A program made the position numbers and the translations under genes. Positions 34,733 through 55,890 of a DNA stretch of 64,000 nucleotides are shown piece by piece (positions within the stretch are counted from its first letter, which is position 1; every line of letters starts with the position of its first letter). The stretch lies in contig NZ_CP025003.1 of NCBI RefSeq assembly GCF_002812485.1, positions 1,054,001-1,118,000 of the forward strand, read 5' to 3'. A model generated the notes under the pieces. It had not been told where the DNA came from, made no database searches, and worked only from the letters and a program-made list of their open reading frames with translations. Source of the DNA: Dickeya fangzhongdai. Lineage in GTDB: Bacteria > Pseudomonadota > Gammaproteobacteria > Enterobacterales > Enterobacteriaceae.

Positions 34733-35875
34733 ATGGCTCAATTTAATCACTTTGAACTCTCGCTTCTGAACCCCAGTTTTGACTCCCCTTTAGTCGACGC
34801 GCTGACGGAACTGGAGTTACTCCGGCATCTGAGGCTGGAAACGGATGTTCACCCTATCCTGTTTGCGCAGTTGAAGGCCGTTTTCCACATGCTGGAAAGT
34901 CTGGGCTCTGCGAGGATTGAGGGAAACCACACCACGCTTGCCGATTATGTTGAAAGCAAAGTCGAAGGGACGCAAAGTTCGACGGATCAACTGAAAGAAA
35001 TCAACAATATTGAAGCTGCGATGGAATTCATCGACGTGCATCTAAATAATGGTGATGACATAACGGAATATTTTATCCGCGAGCTACATAGTCTGGCGGT
35101 TGTCGGGTTGCAACAGGAAGGTGATAAAACTCCCGGTGCCTATCGACAACATAACGTCAGCATCGCTCAGTCTGACCATTTACCGCCGGATCACATCCGC
35201 GTTCCTGATTATATGGCAGAACTGACCGCCTTTATTAACCGTGCTGATAAACCAAAATATGATCTGATGAAGATTGCGCTGGTGCACCATCGTTTTGGCT
35301 GGATACACCCATTTGGCAACGGTAATGGCAGAACGGTCAGACTGCTGACCTATGCGTTATTGATCAAGTATGGTTTTAATGTGCAGGCAGGTGGCCGGGT
35401 TCTCAATCCGACAGCGGTATTTTGTAATGATCGCGAGCGTTATTACGCCATGCTTTCATTAGCGGATAAAGGAACTGAGCAGGGTTTAGAAGAATGGTGT
35501 TTGTATGTACTTTCGGGTATTTCATCTGAGTTGAAGAAAGTCGATCAACTGACAAACCATGCTTTTTTGAGTACAAAAATACTGTATCCGGCGCTCGACT
35601 TCTCATCTGAAAGAGGGCTGATAAACCCGCTGGAATCTAAAGTTCTGAAACGCGCCGTTGAGCTAGGCACGATAAAAGCGGGTGATCTCCGTACCGCTTT
35701 ACCTGACCTAAAACCGGCACAGGTGACTTATCAACTTGGTAAGCTGATCGACCGGGGACTGCTCCAGCCAGTGGAAGAGGGCGCTCGTTCCTATACGGCG
35801 AAGTTTTCTAACTCATATTTGATTCGTGGGGTGATTAAGGTTCTGAGGGAGGAAGGGTTTATTCCTGATTTGTGA
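34733..35875 (+). CDS. Fic-domain AMPylase-type protein with N-terminal inhibitory helix
   Basis: The 380-residue product has the complete catalytic motif [12 protein letters not shown] (about residues 188-199), so the AMP-transfer chemistry should be possible. The N-terminal part contains SARIEGN (about residues 60-66), matching the (S/T)xxxE(G/N) inhibitory helix of class II Fic proteins, so activity is probably self-restrained. The C-terminus (about 285-380) is a winged-helix-like region ([20 protein letters not shown]). It stands alone, flanked by IS3-type ends, and no separate antitoxin is seen. Target unknown. Confidence 0.85.
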
Positions 35876-38050: not shown

Positions 38051-39175
38051 GTGAAAAAACGTATAAAAAAGATACTGTTAAGTAAAGCGTTGGATAAGTA
38101 TTTTTCCACGGTTTCGCGACATAAACGAGGACAATTGCAGGAGTTCTATCGAATCAATGTTATCAAGCGTTCGCGTTTGGCTAATAGAAATATGGATGAA
38201 ATTTCATCCATAGACATTGCGGAATATAGAGATAATAGATTATCGGAATTTAACGCCAGAACGCAAAAGCCTATAAGTGCGAATACTGTGCGACTGGAAT
38301 TAGCATTGTTATCGGCGCTTTATAATCTGGCAAAAGTTGAGTGGGGCACATGCTCTATAAACCCTGTTGAAAATGTTCGTAAGCCTACCGTATCGTCAGG
38401 CCGTACCCGAAGGTTAACCACTCAGGAAGAACGACAGCTAACCAGATACTTCAAAGATAAAAATCCTGAATTATTGGCTATTTTTCAGATCGCATTGGAA
38501 ACGGGAATGCGGCAAGGCGAAATTTTGTCGTTGAGATGGGAATATACCGATCTTCGCCTTGGTGTTGCCCATTTGCCTTTGACGAAAAATGGGACATCGC
38601 GAGACGTTCCATTATCATCAAAAGCACGGCAAATTCTGTGTGGCTTGGGTGAACGGCCACATCATGAGAATGGCTATATTTTTAGCTACACGTCGAGTGG
38701 GTTTAAAAGCGCATGGCGTGTGGCTTTGAAGGCTCTGGCTATCGACGATCTACATTTTCACGATCTCAGACATGAGGCAATCAGCCGATTCTTTGAACTG
38801 GGAACGTTAAATGTTATGGAAGTGGCTGCGATATCAGGTCATAAATCAATGAATATGTTGAAACGCTATACCCACCTTCGTGCAACACACCTCGTGAGCA
38901 AACTGGATGCACATAAGAAACAGGCTAAAAAACTAGCATCCATCTTTATTCCTTACCCAGCGGATATTGATGTCGATGATACAACGGTTACACTGAAATT
39001 TTCCGATCTTGATAACCTGTCTGTGACGGCTTCAACGCATGATGATGCCTTGAAAATTGCCTCTGTGGAATTACTTCGATTTCAGGCTATAGCAGCGAAA
39101 AACGGTAAGAGGCTTCCGCCACCCGGCGCTATCTCAGTGAATTCGGTTGATAGGGTTCTTATTAGCCCACTGTAG
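38051..39175 (+). CDS. tyrosine recombinase with HicB-like C-terminal domain
   Basis: The 374-residue product has an N-terminal core-binding domain (about 10-110) and a catalytic domain with all key residues: Arg in [18 protein letters not shown] (His-x-x-Arg), ISGHKS, and the nucleophile Tyr in LKRYTHL (about 277). After about residue 300 an extra segment ([20 protein letters not shown], then [21 protein letters not shown]) resembles the partly folded HicB antitoxin pattern. It is far from the tRNA, so it is probably not the integrase that placed the island. It may act on local sites or be from an older element. Confidence 0.85.
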
Positions 39176-39282
39176 AGATGCAGATAACCTTTAGATGACG
39201 ATGTTGAGCTAAATATCGTCATTTTTTATGTCGGGAACCTCGACTAACCAAACTGTCTATTCCGACGACGTGTTTTACATAT

Positions 39283-39302
39283 CACACTGATAATCCGGTG
39301 TG
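39283..39302. repeat. 20-bp inverted repeat, copy 1, left of the type III system
   Basis: CACACTGATAATCCGGTGTG is itself an imperfect palindrome. Its inverse complement recurs at 39411-39430 (CACACCGGATTATCAGTATG, one mismatch), and a shorter form GGATAATCAGTGTGG is at 44434-44448. Confidence 0.75.
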
Positions 39303-39406
39303 TTTTAGTGATTGTTGTATATAACATATGGATGTTACGAGTCATTGAGTAGATAGCAAAACTTAATTTAGCACTTCAGAGTGAGGATGCCTGCTGATTC
39401 TGACTG

Positions 39407-41410
39407 ATGTCACACCGGATTATCAGTATGGCAAATGAACGTATTACTGAATATAGCGCTAAACAGAAAGAAAATGCGGAACAACGTTGCAGTATTGATG
39501 CTTTGGCTGAGGGTCGACAGGATGAATTTTGTTCATCACTTTCCGATATCAGTAACGACCTCTTTGGGATCCCGAGCACTACCCCGAATTTCCGTACCGA
39601 ACTGGCTGGTCAGCTTGCCGAACTAATTCCTGAGGTTGTCGCTGATGGCAAGCTGGATGTTGAAAAACTCCGCGAGCTGCTGGCCGATGATGTGGCCGAC
39701 AGTAACGAGCGCTTTGGCCTGTTTTGGCCGGGGAAAAAGCGCGCGCTGCGCGCCGCACAAGCCCCGACAACTGCAACACTGAAACCAGACTTTGCTAACT
39801 CAAAAGACTGGGACGCGACGCAGAATGTGTTTATTGAGGGAGACAACCTTGAAGTACTGAAGATCCTGCAACAACACTATCACAACAAGGTCAAGCTGAT
39901 TTATATCGATCCCCCTTACAACACCGGCAACGATTTTGTTTACCCTGACAACTACAGAGAGGGGTTGGATACTTACCTTGAGTGGACGCGGCAGGTGAAC
40001 GAGGAAGGCAAGAAGGTTTCCACCAATAGCGATACCGAAGGGCGCTATCACTCTAACTGGCTGAACATGATGTACCCGCGTCTGAAATTAGCTCGTAATC
40101 TGCTCACCGATGATGGCGTAATTTTTATTTCGATTGATGACAATGAACAGGAAAACCTTCGTAAACTTTGCAATGAAGTTTTTGGTGAAGGGCGCTTTAT
40201 TGCGCAACTTATTTGGAAGTCTAGAGTAAGCGAAGATACTCGAGCTACGACGGGTGTTTCAACTGACCACGAGTACATTCTCGTTTATTCAAAAACTGAG
40301 AATGCTGTTTTTCGTGGAACGGAAAAAGACAAAACGAAATTTAATAATCCAGACAATGATCCACGTGGCCCATGGCGTAGTGCCGATCTTACAGGATTAG
40401 CGGCAAAAGATGCTCGACCCAACTTACACTATGACCTGATAAACCCTGCCACTTGCGAAAATTATGGATGCCCACCGAAAGGATGGCGATTCGAGCCGGA
40501 AACCATGCGAAAAAAGATCATGGAAGGCAGAATCTTATTCCCAGCGAATTCTGGTGGTCGCCCCAGACATAAATTGTTTCTTAAAGAAATGCGAAGTCTT
40601 TTTAAGAATATGAGTTCGGTAATAACTGATTCAAATACCGCTGCGGGAACCAGGGAAACAAACGCACTAATTGGAAATGGTGTTTTCAGTTTTCCGAAAC
40701 CTGTTTCGCTTATTTTTTCACTTGCAGAGCAAATCATGAGCGATGAAGACATTGCCCTAGATTTCTTCGCTGGCAGTGCCACCACCGCCCACGCCGTAAT
40801 GCAGCTTAATGCTGAAGACAATGGCAAGCGTCGTTTCATCATGGTGCAACTGCCCGAACCTACTCCTGAAGCTTCAGAAGCGCGCAAGGCAGGCTTTGCC
40901 ACTATTGCTGATATCTCGCGTAAGCGCATCGAACTAGCGGGCGAGAAAATAAAATCCGATGTTGCAGAAAGCAATATAGATACCGGCTTCCGAGCCTATA
41001 AGCTGACGGACACCAATTTCACCAAATGGCGCGTCACCAGCGATATCGAACCTGACAAGCTAACCCAGCATTTGCTCGACCTGCGTGGCAGTAGCGTTGA
41101 TGATGCCAGTCCCGATGACCTGCTTACTGAGCTGCTGTTGAAACTCGGCTATTCGTTGAACGAACATCTCAGTATGCAGACTATCGCCGGGCTGGACATC
41201 CGTGCCATCGCTGGCGATACCGATAAGCCACGCCTGCTAACCTACTTAAACGAGCGAATCAAACCCTCATTGGAACAATTGCGGGAACTGGTGAATGCCG
41301 AACCTATGCGTCTGATCGTTCTGGAGGATGCCTTCCAAGGCGACGACGAACTGAAAACCAATATTGCTCAATATGCTAGGAGTAAAGGTATTGAGCTGAG
41401 GACGGCGTGA
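39407..41410 (+). CDS. mod: type III restriction-modification methyltransferase (Mod)
   Basis: The product (667 residues from 39407; ATG 39428 is an alternative) has catalytic motif IV DPPYNTG (YIDPPYNTGNDFV, about residue 168) before the SAM-binding motif I region (DFFAGSATTAHAV, about residue 450), the beta-class order of type III Mod proteins. RFGLFWPGKKRALRAAQAPT and EGRYHSNWLNMMYPRLKLAR are typical. It methylates N6-adenine and gives the complex its specificity. The variable central region (about 260-420) is the probable target-recognition domain. The N-terminal about 60 residues look unlike the family. It overlaps res by 4 bp. Confidence 0.9.
   Translation: MSHRIISMANERITEYSAKQKENAEQRCSIDALAEGRQDEFCSSLSDISNDLFGIPSTTPNFRTELAGQLAELIPEVVADGKLDVEKLRELLADDVADSNERFGLFWPGKKRALRAAQAPTTATLKPDFANSKDWDATQNVFIEGDNLEVLKILQQHYHNKVKLIYIDPPYNTGNDFVYPDNYREGLDTYLEWTRQVNEEGKKVSTNSDTEGRYHSNWLNMMYPRLKLARNLLTDDGVIFISIDDNEQENLRKLCNEVFGEGRFIAQLIWKSRVSEDTRATTGVSTDHEYILVYSKTENAVFRGTEKDKTKFNNPDNDPRGPWRSADLTGLAAKDARPNLHYDLINPATCENYGCPPKGWRFEPETMRKKIMEGRILFPANSGGRPRHKLFLKEMRSLFKNMSSVITDSNTAAGTRETNALIGNGVFSFPKPVSLIFSLAEQIMSDEDIALDFFAGSATTAHAVMQLNAEDNGKRRFIMVQLPEPTPEASEARKAGFATIADISRKRIELAGEKIKSDVAESNIDTGFRAYKLTDTNFTKWRVTSDIEPDKLTQHLLDLRGSSVDDASPDDLLTELLLKLGYSLNEHLSMQTIAGLDIRAIAGDTDKPRLLTYLNERIKPSLEQLRELVNAEPMRLIVLEDAFQGDDELKTNIAQYARSKGIELRTA
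39411..39430. repeat. 20-bp inverted repeat, copy 2, overlapping the mod start
   Basis: CACACCGGATTATCAGTATG matches copy 1 in inverted orientation (19 of 20). It overlaps both possible mod start codons (39407 and 39428). The palindromic elements around the mod promoter could bind a regulator or be recombination sites. Confidence 0.7.
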
Positions 41411-44394
41411 TGAACCATCATTCTCAAAATACGGGCTTTCAATTTGATTCGCAGCAGCAGTATCAGCTTGATGCCATCAATGCCGTGGTGGATTTGTTCG
41501 ATGGTCAGCCAAAGGATGCCGACAAGATCGCGATTGCCTTGCGTGGCAGCGTTGCCAGCCGGGAAGGTGAGCTGGATTTAGGCATTGAACAGGAGGTCGG
41601 CGCTATCGGCAATAATCTGGTGCTGGATGAAGGCACTATCTTTGCTAACTTACAAACAGTACAGGATCGCAACGGGCTGGAGGTCAGCGAAAAACTGGTT
41701 GATGACAAACTGGATTTCGACATCGAAATGGAGACCGGTACGGGTAAAACTTACGTTTATCTGCGTACCGTTTTCGAACTGGCAAATAAGTACGGTTTCA
41801 CCAAGTTTATCGTTCTGGTTCCCAGCGTTGCCATCCGTGAAGGTGTGAACACCAGTATTCGCCTGATGTGCGAGCACTTCCGCAGCCTCTATCCGGCTCA
41901 GCCTTTCGATGCCAATGTCTACAGCGGCGACAAGGCTGAGGAAGTACAGGCTTTTGCTACTGCGACCAACGTGCAAATATTGGTGATGACAATCGACGCG
42001 ATACGCGGTAACAAGAATACGCGCATCATTCACCAGCAGCGCGACAAACTCAATGGCTTGCGTCCTCTGGATTACCTCAAAGGCACGCATCCCGTGGTTA
42101 TCATGGATGAACCACAGAATATGGAGTCGCTACTATCGCAGTCGGCAGTGGGCGAACTCGATCCTGTATTTACGCTGCGCTACTCGGCCACGCATAAGCA
42201 GCGGCGAAATCTAGTCTATCGGCTCGATCCGGTTGACGCGCACGATCTCGGTTTGGTGAAGCAGATCGTTGTGGCTGAAGTCGCTCAGCACGGTGCGGAT
42301 GTTGCACCTTACGTCAAGCTGATGGAAGTGAAAGACACAAAAGCTGCGAAACTTGAACTGGCTTGTCGAAAGGCCGATGGATCTATCGCGCGTCGTAGCA
42401 AAAAAGTCAAACCGCATCAGGAATTGTCCGATGTCACTGGAAATCCGGCTTACGCTGGCTGGCGTATTAATGCTTTAAGCATCGCCGCCTTCGGTGCATC
42501 AGCCAGTATTGAACTGACGCCGAATGGAAACCTGCTGCACGAAGGTGAATCTCTGGGCGGCGCAACGGGCGCGATTTACAAGGAAATGATTCGGGAAACC
42601 GTGCGTGAGCATTTGCGTAAGGAAGCGATGTTACGTCCGAAGGGGATTAAAGTATTGAGTCTGTTTTTCGTAGACAAGGTGGTGAGTTTTCTTGGCGACG
42701 GGGTGAATAACGAAGACGCAAACGGCGAGTTCACGAAGTGGTTCGATGAGGTGTTCAGGGAAGAGCGTAACAAGTCTGACGTCTACCAAAAATTGCTGCC
42801 GCAGGATCCTTGCGAATTACGGCGTGCGTATTTTTCCCAACTGAAAACGCGTGGTGGAACGGCCTTTGTGGATTCATCCGGTACAACGGCCAAAGATGAC
42901 GATGCCTACAAACTCATTATGCAGGATAAGCAACGTCTGCTGGACGGCGATGAACCGGTTCGCTTTATTTTTAGCCATTCCGCATTGCGCGAGGGCTGGG
43001 ACAACCCCAACATATTTCAGATTTGTACGCTGCGTGAAATGGGGGCGGAAACGGAACGTCGGCAAACTTTGGGACGTGGTCTTCGCCTGCCGGTAGCGAA
43101 AACAGTAAAAGGCTATGAGCGTGTTGCCGACCGCAGCATTGCACAGCTCACCGTGGTTGCTAACGAATCTTACGCTACGTTCGCTCAGAATCTGCAAGCC
43201 GAATACAAAGACGCGGGCGTAGCCATCGGACAGGTACGACTTAATGAATTTGCCAAGCTGATGAAGCGGGATCCTTATGGCGCGATGACAGATGACATGC
43301 TGGGATTCAAAGCCTCTTCTGCCGTCTTCAAACATCTGGAAAACGCAGGATTCATCAGGGATGGTAAGACAACCTCCATGTTTCTGCCGGATGCAGAAGG
43401 ATTCTCGTTACATCTGCCTGCCGAGTTCAGGTCCTACGAATCAGATATTATCCGGTGCATCCTTAATGCGGGTATTGAGAAATATGTGAAGCCTGTAAGC
43501 ATGAGGGCCAAGCGTAAATTCAACAAAGAACTCTACGCCTCGCCGGATTTTGAGAGGCTTTGGATCGCTATCAGCCAGAAAACTACTTATCGGGTGACAG
43601 TTAAACACCCTATGCTGATCGAGGCGTGTATAAAGGCGATCAAGGCTGAACCCAAAATCCAGCCGTTACGTATTGATGTCACCCGTGCGGGTGTCAGGGT
43701 GCTGCGTGGCGGCACGCGAGGGCAAGAGCTGGGTGCGCGGACTGTCGACCTAAAAGGCAGCTATGACCTGCCGGACATTATCGGTGAGTTGCAGCAAGGT
43801 ACGTCTCTTACGCGCAAGACGCTGGTGGACATTCTCACCGGCAGCGGCAGACTGGACGAGTTCATTGCTAATCCGAACGACTTTATGGCGATGGTACGCC
43901 GTTGTGTAGAGGGCGAACTACAGCGCGTCATTGTCGAAGGCGTTCAGTATGAAAAGATTGGCGGATCCGTCTATGAACTCCGCGAGTTGCAAGCCGACGG
44001 CCTTGCCGAAAAGGATTTCTTCAAAGAGCATTTGTACCGCGTCGAACACCCCGAGAAAACCGATTTTGATTACGTCGTGTTTGATGGCGGGCCGGATAGC
44101 CCAGAGCGAAAGTTTGCCGAGTTTCTCGATCACCGCGAGGATATCAGGCTGTTTATGAAGCTGCCGCCAAGATTCCAGATCGACACGCCGGTTGGCCCTT
44201 ATAACCCCGACTGGGCCATCATCAAATCCGAAGGCGGCGAAGACCGCATCTATATGGTTCGCGAAACCAAGAGCACCATGGATGAACAAAAAAGGAGGCC
44301 CTCCGAAAATGCCAAAATCAAGTCTGCCGAGGCACACTTCAGAGAAATTGGCATCGAGTATGCGGTTTCAGTACCTGAACAGTGGAATATCTGA
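41407..44394 (+). CDS. res: type III restriction enzyme (Res, helicase-nuclease)
   Basis: The 995-residue product has Walker A (ETGTGKTYVYLR, about residue 114), a DEPQ box (VVIMDEPQNM), helicase motif VI (ERRQTLGRGLRLPV, about 560), and a C-terminal PD-ExK nuclease core (NPDWAIIKSEG...RETKST, about residues 937-961). All catalytic elements appear intact. It needs Mod to cut DNA. Known role of the pair: cleavage of unmodified phage DNA between two inversely oriented sites. Confidence 0.92.
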   Translation: MMNHHSQNTGFQFDSQQQYQLDAINAVVDLFDGQPKDADKIAIALRGSVASREGELDLGIEQEVGAIGNNLVLDEGTIFANLQTVQDRNGLEVSEKLVDDKLDFDIEMETGTGKTYVYLRTVFELANKYGFTKFIVLVPSVAIREGVNTSIRLMCEHFRSLYPAQPFDANVYSGDKAEEVQAFATATNVQILVMTIDAIRGNKNTRIIHQQRDKLNGLRPLDYLKGTHPVVIMDEPQNMESLLSQSAVGELDPVFTLRYSATHKQRRNLVYRLDPVDAHDLGLVKQIVVAEVAQHGADVAPYVKLMEVKDTKAAKLELACRKADGSIARRSKKVKPHQELSDVTGNPAYAGWRINALSIAAFGASASIELTPNGNLLHEGESLGGATGAIYKEMIRETVREHLRKEAMLRPKGIKVLSLFFVDKVVSFLGDGVNNEDANGEFTKWFDEVFREERNKSDVYQKLLPQDPCELRRAYFSQLKTRGGTAFVDSSGTTAKDDDAYKLIMQDKQRLLDGDEPVRFIFSHSALREGWDNPNIFQICTLREMGAETERRQTLGRGLRLPVAKTVKGYERVADRSIAQLTVVANESYATFAQNLQAEYKDAGVAIGQVRLNEFAKLMKRDPYGAMTDDMLGFKASSAVFKHLENAGFIRDGKTTSMFLPDAEGFSLHLPAEFRSYESDIIRCILNAGIEKYVKPVSMRAKRKFNKELYASPDFERLWIAISQKTTYRVTVKHPMLIEACIKAIKAEPKIQPLRIDVTRAGVRVLRGGTRGQELGARTVDLKGSYDLPDIIGELQQGTSLTRKTLVDILTGSGRLDEFIANPNDFMAMVRRCVEGELQRVIVEGVQYEKIGGSVYELRELQADGLAEKDFFKEHLYRVEHPEKTDFDYVVFDGGPDSPERKFAEFLDHREDIRLFMKLPPRFQIDTPVGPYNPDWAIIKSEGGEDRIYMVRETKSTMDEQKRRPSENAKIKSAEAHFREIGIEYAVSVPEQWNI

Positions 44395-44433
44395 GTGTCG
44401 GCTGTAGCTGCATGGGCCTGTGAGGAATAGGCT

Positions 44434-44482
44434 GGATAATCAGTGTGGTAAACCTGTCTCCCTGCTGGAAGACAGGTTTACC
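44434..44482. terminator. 13-bp perfect hairpin between convergent res and invertase genes, joined to a repeat
   Basis: GGTAAACCTGTCT (44447-44459) pairs with AGACAGGTTTACC (44470-44482). It begins with the third copy of the GGATAATCAGTGTGG repeat seen before mod. No long U-run follows on either strand, so it is a stable hairpin that may or may not terminate. Confidence 0.6.
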
Positions 44483-44510
44483 AAAAATAGATTACTTGAT
44501 CTTTTCAACG

Positions 44511-45080
44511 TTACGTTTTGGCCCTCAGTTTTCTGCCGACGGGGAATTTTCGATATAAGGTATCTACTGCTACGTCATAAATCAGTGCCACCTGCTGTCG
44601 CGGGACGCCATTAGCCAGAAGATGTCCGGCTTGCGCCCATTGCTCTGGCGTTAGCTTAGGCCTGCGGCCACCGATGCGCCCTTTAGCTCTGGCGACAGCC
44701 AAACCCGCACGGGTTCGTTCGACAATAAGCTCTCGTTCCATTTCAGCCATCGCACCCATAATGTGAAAAACAAACCTTCCCATTGGCGTGGCGGTATCTA
44801 TGGAATCGGTCACACTACGAAAATGAATCCCGCGTTGTTGCAACGTGTCCATTAATTTGACAAGTTGTCTCATGCTTCGTCCCAATCGATCCAGTTTCCA
44901 CACCGCGAGTGTATCCCCCGCCTGTAATGCCTTCAGAGCACTATTGAGTTTCGGTTTTTTCTCTGTAGTCCCACTGATTTTCTCTTCAAATATCTGTTCA
45001 CATCCTAGCCGTTCCAACGCTTCGCGTTGTAAATCGGTGTTTTGGTCATTTGTTGATACCCTGACATAGCCTATTAACAC
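44511..45080 (-). CDS. serine recombinase of the Pin/Hin DNA invertase type
   Basis: I chose GTG 45080 (MLIGYVRVSTNDQNTDL) with the ideal ribosome site AGGAGG; the ORF extends to 45104 without signal. The 189-residue product has the catalytic Ser in YVRVSTNDQ, the LDRLGRSMRQL and DSIDTATPMGRF segments, the E-helix MERELIVERTRAGL, and a C-terminal HTH (GGRRPKLTPEQW, RQQVALIYDVAVDTLYRKFP). Size and order are those of DNA invertases, which flip segments between inverted sites with help from Fis. It lies next to a 5'-end-bearing segment in reversed orientation. The reversed N-terminal ORF reads toward it and overlaps its start. Confidence 0.9.
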   Translation of the reverse strand: MLIGYVRVSTNDQNTDLQREALERLGCEQIFEEKISGTTEKKPKLNSALKALQAGDTLAVWKLDRLGRSMRQLVKLMDTLQQRGIHFRSVTDSIDTATPMGRFVFHIMGAMAEMERELIVERTRAGLAVARAKGRIGGRRPKLTPEQWAQAGHLLANGVPRQQVALIYDVAVDTLYRKFPVGRKLRAKT

Positions 45081-45132
45081 GCCATTTCCTCCTGCTAAAA
45101 GCACGGAGAATGCCAGATCGCCAGATAACGCT

Positions 45133-45258
45133 CATCTGCATAATTGTTGATTTAGGAAAATCAAAAGCGGCCATAAAACCATAAATAAATTCATCACGAT
45201 TCAGCTCGTGGGTTATCTGTTCAAGCTGCTCGAAAATCCTCGCCTGATTCACTGCCAT
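45133..45258 (-). CDS. detached N-terminal fragment of the adenine methyltransferase
   Basis: ATG 45258 opens MAVNQARIFEQLEQITHELN and continues RDEFIYGFMAAFDFPKSTI, the typical first about 40 residues of MmeI/type IIG-like methyltransferases (FIYD-LLAYGLPKATITRL pattern). After Met-Gln-Met the frame leaves the family and runs on to a stop at 45046 inside the invertase gene. In the current orientation it gives a peptide of about 70 residues. It overlaps the invertase start at 45080, so translation of the invertase may be coupled to it. Confidence 0.7.
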
Positions 45259-45341
45259 ACATGATCCTTCAGAATGCATAACTTGTTTTTTGCCATAACT
45301 ATATACCGCTTGTAGGTAAACCAACGATTACACAGGTGCGC
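45133..45341. other. probable invertible segment carrying the start of the methyltransferase gene (OFF orientation)
   Basis: The about 200-bp stretch holds, on the minus strand, a promoter-like AT-rich region, a GAAGGA ribosome site, ATG 45258 and 42 codons that fit the family N-terminus. It stops exactly where the downstream plus-strand gene lacks its head. The borders share ATTA..CAG-TG-G in inverted orientation: minus strand ATTATGCAGATGAGC (from about 45144) and plus strand ATTACACAGGTGCGC (from 45327), 11 of 17 positions. Flipping between them makes ATG-CAG-ATG-CGC-CAG, an in-frame join to the body at 45339. Inferred from protein logic; the reverse orientation is not observed here. Confidence 0.7.
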
Positions 45342-47957
45342 CAGGGCAGTAGCCGTAACATCGCTAAAGAGCCTGGCCAGGTCGGTATCAAGAATAAACT
45401 CTGGTTTCAGTCTGCTGCGGAAGGAGAAGAGCTTGAGACTCTGCTAAATCAGTGCATTGATGACCCAGCGATAGCTAAAAATAAGATCCGCTTCGTGCTG
45501 ATCACTGATTTTACTCGCTTTCTGGCTTGGGATACCGCAAGTAAAGAGCGGCTCGACATTGAAATGGACGAGTTACATAGCAACTATGGTTTCTTTTTGC
45601 CGTTAGTGGGCCTTGAGAAAGCCATTATCAGCAGTGAAAACCCTGCTGATGTGAAGGCCGCCGAGAAGATGGGGAGATTGTTTGACCTCATCCGAGTCCA
45701 CAATGACCTCAGTAAGTCGGAAGATATTCATGCCCTTAACGTCTTCCTGACTCGTTTGTTATTTTGCCTTTTTGCCGAAGACACCGGTATTTTTGCCCTC
45801 GCCCAGTTCACGTCTGCTGTCAAAAGTTTTACCGAAGAAGATGGCAGCGATCTGGATTCATTTCTTTATCAGTTATTTGGTGTGTTAGATGAGAAGCCTG
45901 ACAGCCCGCAGCGGCAAAGGCTACCCGCCCATCTTGCAGCATTTCCGTATGTAAATGGTGGATTGTTTGCCAGCGATGAACCGGTTCCCGAACTGCGCAA
46001 AAAGGGGCGCAAGATCTTACTCGAATGCGGAACCATGAACTGGAGTGAGATTAACCCAGACATTTTCGGCAGCATGTTCCAGGCTGTGATTGATGTGGAA
46101 CAGCGCAGCCGCTTAGGGCAGCACTACACTTCATATCGCAATATCATGAAGGTGATTCAGCCCCTGTTTCTTGATCCGTTACGCGTTGAACTGGATAAAC
46201 AACGTAGCAATGCCAAGGGGCTTAAAGCGTTACTGGTGCGACTCGGCAAGATCAAAGTATTCGATCCTGCATGTGGATCCGGTAATTTCCTGATTGTGGC
46301 CTACAAAGCGTTACGCAATCTGGAAATTGAAGTGATTGAGGCTCTGCGTGAGCTGGAACCTCAAACATTTTCAATGAGCGGTCTTCATCTGTCACAGTTT
46401 TACGGCATTGAGATTGATGATTTCGCCTGCCAGATTGCTCGATTATCCCTCTGGCTGGCGGAGCACCAGGTGAATAGTCAGTGGGAAAAGGCGTTTGGTT
46501 TCGCGCCACCGGCATTGCCGTTACGTGAAAGTGGAAATATTCATAGTGGTAATAGCTTGCGTCTTGACTGGTATCAAGTCTGTCCTAAGCAAGCTGATGA
46601 CGAAGTGTATGTAATCGGTAACCCACCCTTTTTAGGAACACTGGGACGTTCAGATGAGCAACGTGCTGATATGCAGGCTGTATTTAGCGACTTTAAAGCG
46701 TTAGGAACCTTAGATTTTGTTGCTTGCTGGTTCTGGAAAGGGGCGCAATACATTCAACATTCACGTGCTGAGCTGGCTCTGGTAGCAACCAATTCCATTT
46801 GTCAGGGAGAGCAGGTTGCGACACTGTGGCCGCCAATTTTTTCCCTCGAGCTAAATATCCATTTTGCATACCCAACATTTCCATGGGCAAATAATGCCCG
46901 TGATAAAGCGGCGGTACATGTAATCATTATTGGGCTTTCAGCGAGATCAGAAAAGAGCAGACTTTATCAATACGTACAAGGCGAATGGCATTGCAAAATG
47001 GTCGACAATATCAGCCCATACTTAGTAGAAGGAAGCCGACTGGCAATTATTCCACGAAACTCCCCGTTAATAAAAGGTGTACCTCCATTACTTTTTGGAA
47101 ATAAACCGACTGATGGTGGTTATCTACTGTTAGATAGTTTTGAACGTGATGAATTACTCAAACAAGAACCGCAAGCTGAACGCTGGCTCAAAAAGGTATT
47201 AGGTGCCGATGAGTTTTTTAATGGAAAAGAACGTTGGTGCTTATGGTTGGTTGAGGCGAGTGTTGCTGATTTAGAATCAATGCCATTAGTCGGAAAAAGG
47301 GTTCTTGCTGTTAAAAATGCCCGTCTTAAAAGCTCCAAATCTGGCACAAGAAAAAAATCGAATAGCCCGCATCTGTTTGACGAAAACAGACATCCAGCAT
47401 CAGGAAGTTACATTCTTGTTCCAAGTGTTTCTTCTGAACGCCGTATTTATGTTCCTCTTGGTTTTTTTAATGCAGAAGTAATTTCAACAAATGCAAATTA
47501 TATTATCCCTGACGGCACGTTATACGAATTCGCAATACTTTCTTCGTCAATGCATAACGACTGGATGAGGCTGGTAGCTGGCAGGTTGAAAAGTGACTAT
47601 CGCTATTCTGCATCGGTAGTTTACAACCCTTTTCCCTGGCCTGAAGTGGCCGCAATACAACGCAAAGAAATCGAGGTACTTGCCGAAGACGTGATTTTAA
47701 TCCGAGAAGAGTTTCCCGGCCATACGCTGGCTGAACTCTATGATCCCGACAAGATGCCATCAAAGCTGTTAACTGCCCATCAGGCTCTCGATACCGCGGT
47801 GGATCGACTTTATCGTGAGCGCCCATTCAAAGATGCAGCGGACCGCTTAAGCTGCCTGCTGGCACGTTATGAAGCACTGACGCAGAAACTGACAGTAACT
47901 CAGGCTAAACCAAGAAAGAGCAGAACATCGGCCAACGCAGGAAACCATAATGAATAA
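45336..47957 (+). CDS. type IIG-like (MmeI-type) N6-adenine DNA methyltransferase, headless body
   Basis: The frame is open from a GTG at 45336. It begins RQGSSRNIAKEPGQVGIKNK, which in the family follows about 42 earlier residues; those lie reversed next door. It has FLAWDTASKERL, LNVFLTRLLFCLFAEDTGIF, LGQHYTSYRNIMKV, SAM motif I DPACGSGNF (about residue 309) and catalytic motif NPPFLG (about 431). The C-terminal half holds the target-recognition region. I see no PD-ExK motif, so cleavage would have to come from partners. The helicase gene overlaps its end. If the segment is in the OFF state, at most a truncated protein can be made. Confidence 0.88.
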   Translation: MRQGSSRNIAKEPGQVGIKNKLWFQSAAEGEELETLLNQCIDDPAIAKNKIRFVLITDFTRFLAWDTASKERLDIEMDELHSNYGFFLPLVGLEKAIISSENPADVKAAEKMGRLFDLIRVHNDLSKSEDIHALNVFLTRLLFCLFAEDTGIFALAQFTSAVKSFTEEDGSDLDSFLYQLFGVLDEKPDSPQRQRLPAHLAAFPYVNGGLFASDEPVPELRKKGRKILLECGTMNWSEINPDIFGSMFQAVIDVEQRSRLGQHYTSYRNIMKVIQPLFLDPLRVELDKQRSNAKGLKALLVRLGKIKVFDPACGSGNFLIVAYKALRNLEIEVIEALRELEPQTFSMSGLHLSQFYGIEIDDFACQIARLSLWLAEHQVNSQWEKAFGFAPPALPLRESGNIHSGNSLRLDWYQVCPKQADDEVYVIGNPPFLGTLGRSDEQRADMQAVFSDFKALGTLDFVACWFWKGAQYIQHSRAELALVATNSICQGEQVATLWPPIFSLELNIHFAYPTFPWANNARDKAAVHVIIIGLSARSEKSRLYQYVQGEWHCKMVDNISPYLVEGSRLAIIPRNSPLIKGVPPLLFGNKPTDGGYLLLDSFERDELLKQEPQAERWLKKVLGADEFFNGKERWCLWLVEASVADLESMPLVGKRVLAVKNARLKSSKSGTRKKSNSPHLFDENRHPASGSYILVPSVSSERRIYVPLGFFNAEVISTNANYIIPDGTLYEFAILSSSMHNDWMRLVAGRLKSDYRYSASVVYNPFPWPEVAAIQRKEIEVLAEDVILIREEFPGHTLAELYDPDKMPSKLLTAHQALDTAVDRLYRERPFKDAADRLSCLLARYEALTQKLTVTQAKPRKSRTSANAGNHNE

Positions 47958-49959
47958 TTTATTGCATGCTGAGTATGGTCAGACGGGGCGGAGTTCCGGC
48001 CTTAATTCGATGGGAATGCGTGAAATGCAGGCCCGAGCTTTTGCTGAACGCAACAGCCAGTATTTGTTGATCAAGGCTCCTCCAGCTTCGGGGAAATCGC
48101 GTGCATTAATGTTTCTGGGGCTGGATAAACTGGAAAATCAGAGCGTGCGAAAAGTGATTGTCGCCGTCCCAGAAAAGTCTATCGGTGGCTCTTTTCAGGA
48201 GACCAATTTAACCGAACAAGGTTTTTTTGCTGACTGGCGTGTTACATCCGAGAACAATCTGTGTGTGGATGGTGGGGAAGCGGGTAAGGTTCAGGCTTTC
48301 CAACGCTTTATGCATGGCAACGAACGTATTCTGATATGTACTCATGCGACCTTGCGTTTTGCCTTTGATAAATTAGTGGTAACAGATTTCGATAATTGCC
48401 TGGTGGCTATTGATGAGTTTCACCATGTTTCTGCCGATGGTGATAATCGGCTTGGTAATCTTATTGATGAGCTCATAAAAAAATCGAGTGCGCATATCGT
48501 TGCCATGACCGGATCATATTTCCGAGGCGATACCGTGCCGATCCTGTTGCCTGAGGATGAAGCGCTGTTCACTAAGGTGACATACACCTATTACGAGCAG
48601 CTGAATGGCTATCAATATCTTAAATCTCTGGGTATTGGTTATCATTTTTATCAGGGGCGTTATATTGATGCATTGCCCACGGTACTCGATACCAGCAAAA
48701 AAACGATTATTCATATCCCGAATGTTAATTCCGGTGAATCGACCAAAGATAAATATGGAGAGGTTGATGCTATCCTTGATGTGATTGGCAGCGTGATAAA
48801 ACGCGATCTTCTGACTGGGGTTTATTATATTGCGGGAAAAAATGGCTGTGAGCTCAAATTAGCCAATCTGGTTGATGATAATCCTAACGAACGATCCAAA
48901 ATCCAGGCGTATTTACGTAATATCAAAGCGGCGGATGACATGGACATCATTATCGCCTTAGGCATGGCGAAAGAAGGGTTTGACTGGCCTTACTGTGAGC
49001 ATGTGTTGACGATTGGCTATCGCAGCTCTCTGACAGAAATTGTGCAGATTATTGGCCGTGCGACCCGAGATTGTACGGGAAAACCGCATGCTCAGTTTAC
49101 CAATCTCATCGCTCAACCCGATGCACAGGATGATGATGTGAGGGCATCGGTCAACAATATGCTTAAGGCGATCACCACATCGTTATTGATGGAGCAGATC
49201 CTCGCCCCCAACATCCAGTTTAAGCCTCGTTCTCAATGGGACGGTCAGCCACTGCCACCTAATACTCTGCTCGTAGATGATTCCGCAACCTCACCGGTAT
49301 CCCCGAAAGTGTTGGATATTCTGAACAGCGACAAGAACGAAATTATGGCGACTCTGATGGCTAACGAACAGTTGGTCAAAGAGACAATTAGTGAAACCAC
49401 ACCCCCCGAAACTTTCACTCAAGTGGCTTTGCCTGCTGTGATTCAGACACTTTACCCAGATTTGACCGACGAAGAGCAGGAACAGGTACGCATAGGAGTA
49501 TTACAAAGTATGTTGATCACTCAGAAAGGGGGCGTGGTTGATTGGGAAGACCTGCCGCAGGATGCCAATGTGGATATGGCGAATGGCGCTGAAGAAGAGT
49601 CAGTAAACAGTGTCGCAGGTAAGCAGTTCCTGAAGATGGGTGAAAAGTTCATCTGTATTGATAATCTGGATATAGACCTGATAGATGCGGTTAATCCGTT
49701 CCATGGTGCTTATGAAATTCTCTCTAAATCGGTAACTGCGCCTATGCTGAAAACCATCCAGGAAGCGGTAAGTGCCAGCCGATCGCAGGTCTCCGAAGAA
49801 GAAGCAATTATACTTTGGCCTAAGATCAAGCAGTTCACCCGAGAACAACAGAGAGAGCCGTCGCTGAATGCCAGTGATTCGATTGAGAAGCGTTATGCCG
49901 AAGCGCTCGCCTTTATCCGCAAAATGAAGCAACAGAAGTTGGCTAATCAGGAGCAGTAA
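47950..49959 (+). CDS. SF2 DEAD/DEAH-type helicase of the methyltransferase operon
   Basis: The 669-residue product overlaps the methyltransferase gene by 8 bp. Motifs: Walker A APPASGKS (about residue 42), DEFHH as the DExH box, MTGSYFRGD (motif III) and QIIGRATRD (motif VI). The C-terminal about 230 residues are unlike known domains that I recognise. It resembles helicases of restriction and DISARM-like systems in overall plan, but no DISARM partner is near. I infer that it works as translocase for the GIY-YIG nuclease under control of the methyltransferase. Confidence 0.85.
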   Translation: MNNLLHAEYGQTGRSSGLNSMGMREMQARAFAERNSQYLLIKAPPASGKSRALMFLGLDKLENQSVRKVIVAVPEKSIGGSFQETNLTEQGFFADWRVTSENNLCVDGGEAGKVQAFQRFMHGNERILICTHATLRFAFDKLVVTDFDNCLVAIDEFHHVSADGDNRLGNLIDELIKKSSAHIVAMTGSYFRGDTVPILLPEDEALFTKVTYTYYEQLNGYQYLKSLGIGYHFYQGRYIDALPTVLDTSKKTIIHIPNVNSGESTKDKYGEVDAILDVIGSVIKRDLLTGVYYIAGKNGCELKLANLVDDNPNERSKIQAYLRNIKAADDMDIIIALGMAKEGFDWPYCEHVLTIGYRSSLTEIVQIIGRATRDCTGKPHAQFTNLIAQPDAQDDDVRASVNNMLKAITTSLLMEQILAPNIQFKPRSQWDGQPLPPNTLLVDDSATSPVSPKVLDILNSDKNEIMATLMANEQLVKETISETTPPETFTQVALPAVIQTLYPDLTDEEQEQVRIGVLQSMLITQKGGVVDWEDLPQDANVDMANGAEEESVNSVAGKQFLKMGEKFICIDNLDIDLIDAVNPFHGAYEILSKSVTAPMLKTIQEAVSASRSQVSEEEAIILWPKIKQFTREQQREPSLNASDSIEKRYAEALAFIRKMKQQKLANQEQ

Positions 49960-49960
49960 A

Positions 49961-51220
49961 ATGATCCGGTTATCGACAACGCGATTAGCGGCCAAATCAA
50001 CATTAGATGAGATCCTCAGTGAAGAAGATGATCTCTGTTTATTGAATGTTCACCCTCTGAAGCACAAGGCGAGTCCTGTCGATTTGGCTGGCAATCAGTT
50101 TGCTGAAATTGCCGCGTTTTACGATCGGCATGGCCGTATGCCAACTGAAAACAGCACCGCTTCTCTTGATGAAAAACGCCTGGCAAGACGATTGCGCATC
50201 ATTAAAGAAAATCCCAACATATGTGCTTCGTTGCAAACGCTGGATTGCCGGGGGCTTCTGGCTTCAAATCATATTGAAAATGGTAGAACCCCACTAGCCG
50301 CTGAACCAACACCATTATCCTATGCCAACAAATCAGAACTGGTGACTTCTTTAGAGGATATTTTTGCCGACGATGAGGACGGTTTATTAAATTTTGCAGA
50401 ACCTGATATCTTCAGCTTACAGTATGTTTCTGCTGATAAAAAAGAGCAGCCAGATGACATTGCTCAGCGCCAGCCGTGTCAAGACTTCCAGCGTTTCGAA
50501 CCCTTGTTTTATAGCCTGCATCAAGGCTTAAAAAATGGGGTTTTTAGTCTTGAGCGTTTTACCCATAAATTGAAAATTGTTGAAGGCGATTTTTTTATTC
50601 TTAATGGGTTACTGGGATATGTCCATAGTGCTGGTGAACGTCTGGGTCAGTACCGTACTTACAACGCCCGATTGCGACTGATATTTGAGAATGGCACCGA
50701 AATGAACATGCTCTATCAATCCTTAACTCATGGTTTGGTGAGGGATAAAGAAGGGCGCAAGGTGCAACTCAATGGCAAGACGTTGCAACCATCAGATACT
50801 GCGGTGCCGACCGGCTTGGTTTATGTGCTCGCGACCACAAGTACAGACCCAGCGCTTATTCCTTATAAACAAAGTCTTTACAAAATTGGTTTTACTGAAA
50901 CAACTGTGGAGCAGCGCATTGAGCATGCCGAGAAAGATCGTACTTTCCTTGAAGCACCTGTCAGGATTGTGGCTACCAGTCAGTGTTTTAACCTCAATGC
51001 CCAAAAATTAGAGGCATTGGTACATGGTTTCCTCGCTGCCCGTCGGCTCAACATTACGCTCAAGAGCCATAACGGTCAGATCTATACTCCAAGAGAGTGG
51101 TTTAATGTCCCATTGGCTACAGTTCAGGCCGTTATCCAGCACATTGTGGACGGAACTATTTCGCAATACCGACTGGATAATACGACTGGGAAAATTGTTG
51201 CGAAACACCCTGGGTTATAA
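49961..51220 (+). CDS. GIY-YIG (T5orf172-type) nuclease
   Basis: ATG 49961 follows the helicase stop by one base. The 419-residue product has an uncharacterised N-terminal part (about 1-270, with repeated Asp/Glu-rich helices, DEILSEEDDLCLLNVHPLK) and a C-terminal GIY-YIG domain: VYVLATTS as the first strand, LYKIGFTETTVEQRI, and a Glu in QKLEALVHGFLAARRL. These fit T5orf172/MUG113 nucleases, which cut DNA in restriction-like systems. It is the only candidate nuclease in this operon. Confidence 0.82.
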   Translation: MIRLSTTRLAAKSTLDEILSEEDDLCLLNVHPLKHKASPVDLAGNQFAEIAAFYDRHGRMPTENSTASLDEKRLARRLRIIKENPNICASLQTLDCRGLLASNHIENGRTPLAAEPTPLSYANKSELVTSLEDIFADDEDGLLNFAEPDIFSLQYVSADKKEQPDDIAQRQPCQDFQRFEPLFYSLHQGLKNGVFSLERFTHKLKIVEGDFFILNGLLGYVHSAGERLGQYRTYNARLRLIFENGTEMNMLYQSLTHGLVRDKEGRKVQLNGKTLQPSDTAVPTGLVYVLATTSTDPALIPYKQSLYKIGFTETTVEQRIEHAEKDRTFLEAPVRIVATSQCFNLNAQKLEALVHGFLAARRLNITLKSHNGQIYTPREWFNVPLATVQAVIQHIVDGTISQYRLDNTTGKIVAKHPGL

Positions 51221-54390: not shown

Positions 54391-55653
54391 TCACTCTTCT
54401 CCCCGGTAGCTCCGCGCATAAATATACGGTGCGACGTAGCCTTCGCGGTTTACATCCAAATAATCTGACCACCACTGCATCATCTCGATTCTGGCTTCCA
54501 GATGCTCCGCTTTATGCACATAAGCCGCCCGCACGCCGTTGCGCTCTTTGTGGCTCATCTGCCGCTCAATAGCGTCTTTTGACCAGCGCCCGGACTCGTT
54601 CAGCGCGCTACAGGCCATGGTTCTGAAGCCATGGCCGCATATTTCGGTTTTGGTGTCATAGCCAATCACGCGCAGCGCCTTGTTGATGGTGTTTTCACTC
54701 ATCGGCTTGTTCAGGGTATGTGCGCCCGGGAAAACGAAGACCGATTCGCCGGAAAGCGCCTGAATCTGTTTCAGCAGAGCGACCGCCTGCCGTGACAGCG
54801 GCACCAGATGTTCATCCTTCATCTTGGCGCCACGCTCTGAGAACCGCACGCCGTCTACCGCTTCGCGCTGGGCGGGCACGCTCCAGATATGCGCTTTGAG
54901 GTTGAATTCATCCCAGCGGGCAAAACGCAGTTCGCTGGAGCGCAGAAAAACATGCAGATTCAGCTCCAGCGCCAGACGGGTGAGCATCCGGCCTTTGTAG
55001 CTCTCTATCTTCGCCAGCATTTCAGGCAGGCGTTTCAGCGGCAGAGCGGGGTGATGTTGGGTCACAACCGGGGTCACGACACCATCCAAATCGTAAGCCG
55101 GATTGTATTTGATGACGCCCTGCTGGACGGCGTGGCGCATGATTTTGGTCAGATGCTGGCGCACCCGTCCGGCGACGTCATGCACGCCTTTATCGTCAAT
55201 CGCCTTAACCAACTGCGCCAGATGGCGGGTTTCAACCTTTGCGATATCCATCGCACCAATGGCGGGGAAAACGTAGCGTTTCAGGCAGATAAGAATTTTA
55301 TCGGCGTGCGCGTCCGACCAGAGTTTAAGGCTGCTGGTGTGCCACGCCTGAGCGACATACTGAAAGGTGCGGGATTCATCAACGGCGGGGTTGTTCGCCT
55401 TGCGAAGCTGAGAAGGGCTGATGCCGGACGCCAATAGCTTACGCGCTGCATCGCGCTTTTCGCGGGCTTCTGCCAGTGTAGTTTGAGGGTAGGGTCCAAA
55501 GGCCAGACGGTTTTCTTTACCGCCGAAGCGATAGCGGAAATACCATAGCTTAGCGCCGCTGGGTGATACCGTGAGGTACAGGCCTTGCGAGTCTGTGAGC
55601 TTATAAGATTTTGCGAGGGGATTCGCGGATCGGACTTTGCTGTCAGTTAACAT
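54391..55653 (-). CDS. P4-type tyrosine integrase of the island
   Basis: I chose ATG 55653 (MLTDSKVRSANPLAKSYKLT), the usual P4-integrase start; the ORF extends to 55674. The 420-residue product has the DUF4102 N-terminal arm-binding domain (DSQGLYLTVSPSGAKLWYFR), a core-binding domain and a catalytic domain with Arg in LRSSELRFARW, His-x-x-Arg in CGHGFRT, His in RQMSHKE and the nucleophile Tyr in RAAYVHKAE. It lies 161 bp from tRNA-Phe and reads away from it, the standard arrangement. Confidence 0.93.
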   Translation of the reverse strand: MLTDSKVRSANPLAKSYKLTDSQGLYLTVSPSGAKLWYFRYRFGGKENRLAFGPYPQTTLAEAREKRDAARKLLASGISPSQLRKANNPAVDESRTFQYVAQAWHTSSLKLWSDAHADKILICLKRYVFPAIGAMDIAKVETRHLAQLVKAIDDKGVHDVAGRVRQHLTKIMRHAVQQGVIKYNPAYDLDGVVTPVVTQHHPALPLKRLPEMLAKIESYKGRMLTRLALELNLHVFLRSSELRFARWDEFNLKAHIWSVPAQREAVDGVRFSERGAKMKDEHLVPLSRQAVALLKQIQALSGESVFVFPGAHTLNKPMSENTINKALRVIGYDTKTEICGHGFRTMACSALNESGRWSKDAIERQMSHKERNGVRAAYVHKAEHLEARIEMMQWWSDYLDVNREGYVAPYIYARSYRGEE

Positions 55654-55813
55654 GTGAGGGTCACTCCCGTTCATCGAACTGAATGACCCGCAATCTGACC
55701 CACAAATTCCCCGATACGAAGGGATAAATCAAAACGCATCGGAAAAGATTTTCACGCCAACTTATTGAATCGCAACAATACAGGGATTGATAAGGAGGCA
55801 TAAAAAAGGAAAT

Positions 55814-55834
55814 GTGGTGCCCGGACTCGGAATC
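55814..55834. other. proximal island attachment site within tRNA-Phe 3' end
   Basis: GTGGTGCCCGGACTCGG is shared exactly with 37458-37474. The tRNA remains complete, since the island brought a matching 3' end. Confidence 0.88.
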
Positions 55835-55890
55835 GAACCAAGGACACGGGGATTTTCAATCCCCTGCTCTACCGACTGAGCTATCCGGGC
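55815..55890 (-). tRNA. pheV: tRNA-Phe (GAA)
   Basis: The minus strand gives a full 76-nt cloverleaf: GCCCGGATAGCTCAGTCGGT at the 5' end, anticodon loop TTGAAAA with anticodon GAA, TTCGATT in the T loop, and an encoded CCA. The position next to speC matches pheV in E. coli. Confidence 0.97.

Follow-up and report, generated by a model that had tools for sequence, protein, structure and literature searches.

The closest described counterparts of the locus analysed here are operons of the DnmA-YeeB-YeeC kind. According to excerpts of the report on these systems (PMC9973331), DnmA lacks a nuclease motif and the DnmA-YeeB-YeeC gene order is conserved; deletions of the Vibrio crassostreae homologues raised sensitivity to some phages, and the B. 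subtilis genes gave no phage protection. Because no phage defence was seen, the B. subtilis operon is interpreted in the same excerpts as a relic with an orphan DNA methyltransferase (MTase). Phase variation driven by adjacent recombinases is raised there as a possibility; repeats were not found, and methylation was homogeneous. Our locus has the gene order that these excerpts give for B. subtilis and V. crassostreae, namely an MmeI-like MTase, an SF2 helicase and a T5orf172/GIY-YIG protein, but it differs in that the start of the MTase gene is located in an inverted segment accompanied by matching sites and a serine invertase gene.

Switches of the Hin/Gin/Cin/Pin type also consist of a small serine invertase gene beside a segment with short inverted sites, as is the case here, and inversion by Hin turns a promoter round (excerpt of PMC3798978). 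By contrast, the segment described here is about 174 bp long, carries the start codon and first codons of the target itself, and lies outside the invertase gene; furthermore, the operon that it targets encodes a DNA MTase, and no Fis pair was found. Site-specific inversion likewise controls DNA methylation in hsdS systems such as that of S. pneumoniae (PMC4948785, consulted in excerpt). While those systems exchange specificity parts, only the start is concerned here, which makes for an on/off outcome. Specificity switching of the hsdS type was rejected as an explanation because the segment carries a leader and start codons only. Intragenic invertons, or gene-altering inversions with one end inside a coding region as proposed here, are reportedly the subject of the surveys Chanin 2024 and Milman 2023. 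Among the literature matches listed, we recognised no report in which a DnmA/MmeI-type MTase gene has its start inverted, although these two surveys could contain one.

The window, a stretch of 64,000 nucleotides of Dickeya fangzhongdai DNA to which all coordinates refer, contains on its plus strand a gene for a headless DnmA/MmeI-like DNA MTase of 873 amino acids (45336–47957; nominal GTG start; Pfam MmeI_N, MmeI_hel, MmeI_Mtase, MmeI_TRD and MmeI_C). Immediately 3' of it, in DnmA-YeeB-YeeC order, follow genes for a YeeB-like SF2 helicase (47950–49959; DEAD, Helicase_C, ResIII), which overlaps the MTase stop codon, and a YeeC-like T5orf172/MUG113 protein of the GIY-YIG type (49961–51220; T5orf172, MUG113). 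Since the three genes overlap or nearly abut, they are likely to be expressed as a unit. The MTase shares its MTase, spacer, TRD and C-terminal domains with the type IIG/IIL enzyme MmeI (PDB 5hr4). In contrast to MmeI, however, E80 and K82, which we take to be catalytic residues, are replaced (they align with Q and S; D70 is not aligned), and the helicase and GIY-YIG protein are encoded by separate genes. A type IIG/IIL enzyme with nuclease and MTase in one chain was rejected on the basis of this change of the ExK motif to Q and S relative to 5hr4; PADLOC nevertheless labels the MTase as REase_MTase_IIG. The initial annotation had likewise spoken of a type IIG-like gene, a description better replaced by that of a DnmA/MmeI-like MTase without nuclease residues in a three-gene operon. 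Judged from its predicted proteins, the operon thus appears to be of the DnmA-YeeB-YeeC kind rather than a true type IIG enzyme. The DNA-methylating gene probably has a role in defence.

The MTase ORF begins abruptly at residue 42 of the joined form described below, close to residue 43 of the family as estimated initially. The first 41 residues are missing, and the Pfam match of the body to MmeI_N starts only at profile position 84. The missing head is encoded on the minus strand by a frame that starts with ATG 45258, specifies MAVNQARIFEQLEQITHELNRDEFIYGFMAAFDFPKSTI and is preceded by an SD-like GAAGGA (45270–45265); ribosome site, start codon and N-terminus were all found on the opposite strand where the initial annotation had placed them. 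By reading the sequence, no well-placed ribosome site was found ahead of the MTase GTG at 45336. In the present orientation the gene start is stranded in a minus-strand ORF of 70 amino acids (45258–45046); its first 39 codons correspond to the head of the MTase, and it extends over the GTG of the invertase at 45080. Homologues were taken as the best 120 of 7999 scored, comprising 12 from the immediate clade and 108 from outside. In all 108 of these outside homologues the head is present at the N-terminus (in two after a short extension), and the initially named counter-case of full-length homologues without head was not encountered among them. Seventeen head positions are nearly invariant (at least 90%) in a 25-row alignment, in which row P0005 is without head. 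Head and body belong to a single family protein.

The gene next to the segment (44511–45080, minus strand, GTG start at 45080) encodes a Gin/Hin-type serine DNA invertase of 189 amino acids. The Pfam domains Resolvase and HTH_7 are those of a small serine recombinase of the invertase type with HTH, and the best matches among solved structures are 3uj3 (E 4.9e-84), presumably Mu Gin, and 4m6f (E 1.2e-82), both named DNA-invertase, in line with the identification made initially. An SD-like AGGAGG is present on the minus strand at 45093–45088. The 90% cluster to which the invertase belongs (98% to the window) comprises 28 sequences, with the next best at 77%. A search of 44480–45360 with a crude pattern yielded no consensus Fis enhancer pair at 46–50 bp spacing, and a scan of 44380–45480 gave no match to a sigma-70 promoter. 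Of the promoter-plus-start-codon inversion in the OFF state proposed by the initial annotation, the start codons and the orientation hold, and the promoter is presumed, from position only, to lie within the leader inside the segment (45259–45322, minus strand), where TATAGT at 45303–45298 is likewise a candidate by position.

The two broken ends are alike in inverted orientation, as had been noticed before: the best 26-mer matches at 19/26 positions, a value reached by 11 of 2000 dinucleotide shuffles. This match is modest by itself but becomes convincing because it is placed exactly at both broken ends and goes along with an in-frame join. Sites of Hin and Gin have dyad symmetry about an AA-type core. 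Here, the candidate crossover sites A (45135–45160, minus strand, inverted; core TT on the plus strand at 45147–45148) and B (45311–45336, plus strand; core AA at 45323–45324) are identical at 17/26 positions in a 26-bp register about the AA core. Compared with the two inverted 26-bp sites with dyad symmetry and a 2-bp core that are typical of an invertase switch, the locus has an inverted pair with an AA core, dyads that are partial (GTAAACC-AA-CGATTAC and CTAAATC-AA-CAATTAT; GTAA....TTAC around the core of site B) and outer halves that are divergent and bear poor likeness to hix/gix/cix sites (3–6 of 12). The distance from core to core is 176 bp; site B shares sequence with the MTase codons at about residues 38–42, and site A lies beyond the start codon. 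In the 5.03-Mb genome of the organism, a 19-nt pattern common to both sites gave two exact matches (by construction), none with one or two mismatches and four with three, as compared with five matches in all for the reversed pattern used as control. The site pair is inverted in all five genomes that carry the locus (15 loci from these five, of 55 loci).

The joined relatives P0002 and P0012 read FPKSTITQVRQ at the junction, where the head side supplies the codon for serine and the body side that for the second threonine. From this reading, exchange is placed within C-AAC-(A/G)-ATTA, and TT 45147–45148 together with AA 45323–45324 are the best-fitting candidates for the cores. The interior of the segment, present here in OFF orientation, would then extend from about 45149 to 45322 (174 bp between cores); the inversion itself as proposed initially is retained, but not its extent of 45133–45341. 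When the interior is flipped in silico, a single intact ORF of 914 amino acids results, in frame and of the length foreseen in the initial annotation (about 914 residues). Across the junction it is identical at 60/60 residues to P0002 from Pectobacterium versatile and at 74/80 to P0012 from Klebsiella, which likewise has 914 amino acids. Since the core was chosen with the joined relatives in view, agreement across the junction was not predicted independently; frame and length, by contrast, are independent. The junction proposed originally, ATG-CAG-ATG joined to CGC-CAG, is slightly off: it predicts KSTIMQMRQ, which is absent from all fetched proteins.

Joined and unjoined forms were both found among the 12 clade proteins (P0002–P0013). 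Two are joined in frame (P0002, which is 5'-incomplete, and P0012), and the joined arrangement predicted initially is thus represented in the databases. A third, P0003, is joined out of frame, five begin at the position that corresponds to the window's GTG (OFF), three are partial from (T)ITQV and would be compatible with OFF, and one is uninformative. The four entries named P. versatile (P0002, P0003, P0004, P0009) include joined as well as unjoined forms. As deduced from the protein, P0003 has four extra nucleotides at its junction, by slippage or an imprecise join. P0012 may represent an unsplit copy without invertase. In a tree of MTase bodies, the clade of 14 rows is fully supported (100/100) and the window protein is sister to the joined P0002 (99/97); flips were not counted on this tree because 9/18 inner branches are unsupported. 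The TRD (47028–47660) of 13 compared members is 68–81% identical to that of the window, with nearly the same TRD in G455 (206/211). Since it differs sharply between otherwise close relatives, recognition sequences appear to be exchanged among strains.

At the DNA level, copies 98–99% identical over 45081–46300 were detected in G022, which belongs to another genus, and in G455, G464 and G471. G022 is the only such genome besides the window's own among 391 family genomes, which further gave three MTase matches at greater distance and a short one that looks like chance; the other three are among 25 genomes of one genus. No copy was found in eight other genomes of the window's own genus or in two and five genomes of two further genera. 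The genome from which the window comes gave two pectate-lyase matches, as would suit a soft-rot bacterium such as Dickeya. The segment is OFF in all five genomes (the window and these four), so that the OFF state reported initially for the window extends to these four; joined forms are represented only among predicted database proteins of relatives. Protein and DNA counts overlap since the P. colocasium protein P0008 and G464 come from the same genome. Across the five genomes, the invertase is 98–99.5% identical and the head 42/42. The three-gene operon is also present on a Klebsiella plasmid, where the MTase gene is unsplit and no invertase was found within the 17.3 kb examined; the annotated 'recombinase' there is RecA-like. 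Plasmids gave no match to the segment, and six plasmid records matched elsewhere, one with an MTase at 74% and five over roughly 100 bases of the invertase gene. There was no match to the locus in an E. coli collection of 20,395 records, phage records contained only relatives under 60% and viral contigs none, and one Vibrio locus at 68% was present among genome contigs.

We consider it quite probable that the locus is a phase-variation switch that acts at the very start of a DnmA-YeeB-YeeC-like operon of three genes for DNA modification/defence, within its opening codons, and very likely that it is a reversible on/off switch, seen here OFF. This model is based on a split gene with its head inverted, a pair of sites, an adjacent invertase, joined and unjoined relatives, and a conserved unit. 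The Gin/Hin-like invertase would recombine the inverted sites A and B. In the ON state, the body would be read in frame behind the leader, the ribosome site, the ATG and the 37 initial codons to yield the 914-amino acid MTase, after which the helicase and GIY-YIG protein would be expressed. In the OFF state, leader and head face the invertase gene and the MTase therefore lacks a proper start, whereby the whole operon would presumably be silent until the segment flips back.

The main alternative to be weighed against a reversible switch is that the gene was disrupted just once, by an inversion in the past that was then passed on by horizontal transfer, leaving a dead relic. That all five genomes are OFF at the DNA level agrees with such a scenario, as do the identical heads, without a single difference among the five, which may stem from a recent common source. 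A relic should decay, however, and low dN/dS values together with the absence of stop codons from the locus genes of all five OFF genomes argue against it. Mean dN/dS, from simple pairwise estimates that recombination may disturb, was 0.03 for the invertase, 0.13 for MTase residues 1–560, 0.20 for the TRD, 0.19 for the C-terminal part of the MTase, 0.10 for the helicase and 0.14 for the GIY-YIG protein. Moreover, joined forms occur inside the same clade, and a single species name covers both joined and unjoined entries. We regard a dead relic as unlikely. A 193-bp invariant run over the segment, which was equalled in 0 of 5000 uniform placements on 2.5 kb, was rejected as evidence because it is no longer significant once the low variation around it is taken into account (0.21). 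An assembly or annotation artefact comes into consideration in that invertible regions can be mis-assembled, but its probability is next to negligible: the same arrangement recurs in five genomes from three genera, which also makes the assembly error considered by the initial annotation improbable.

Two further alternatives concern the parts of the locus. Production of a working shorter MTase (873 amino acids from GTG 45336) with altered activity in the OFF orientation would be consistent with this GTG being in frame and with five relatives listed with the same first residue, yet such a protein would lack the 17 conserved head positions and has no well-placed ribosome site before its start, which makes it very improbable; the structure model (mean pLDDT 54) is too poor to judge it. 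That the invertase serves another segment and is present here by chance is less credible still. Related invertase genes often serve phage tail genes, and they are common: 94 of 390 genomes match a query spanning the invertase and the MTase start, mostly in the invertase part. But no other place in the genome matches the sites with fewer than three mismatches, the invertase accompanies the operon in five genomes, in which its other neighbour varies, and the one invertase-free copy examined, that of the Klebsiella plasmid, is unsplit.

If the switch model is correct, a whole MTase-helicase-nuclease operon and its methylation pattern would be governed by a single flip at a start codon. Operons of this type may go unexpressed in most of the cells that have been sequenced and still be usable, and database MTases that are 'partial' or have a short start can represent OFF states rather than pseudogenes. 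It is tempting to speculate, if with considerable doubt, that the leader serves two masters: it would express the operon in the ON state, leaving the invertase without that promoter, and in the OFF state would read through the 70-amino acid ORF into the invertase gene. Invertase production would then be higher in OFF cells, which would tend to flip back; the switch would thus have an intrinsic way of returning from OFF to ON, and the ON state would be stable. The OFF orientation of the DNA in five of five genomes speaks against this idea.

Some observations concern the surroundings of the switch. Invertase, head, MTase, helicase and GIY-YIG gene are found together in the five genomes, with a neighbouring R-M cassette that varies: the cassette beyond the invertase is type III Mod/Res in three of them (with Mod at only 74% in G455) and a different MTase/specificity pair in two, including G464. 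The slot at 38051–44510, between integrase and invertase, is perhaps an exchange site for R-M cassettes (also in L052 and L054). A presumably P4-like integrase gene in the region 54391–55890, beside tRNA-Phe (55815–55890), probably marks an island end. A strong hairpin at 44446–44484 (z −5.8), whose arms contain GGTAAACCTGTCT, is situated in the gap that separates the invertase gene from the type III res gene; it has no U tract, and GGTAAACC in its arms also occurs in the inner half of site B. The same region further encodes a Fic-domain protein (34733–35875; Pfam Fic, PADLOC SoFic).
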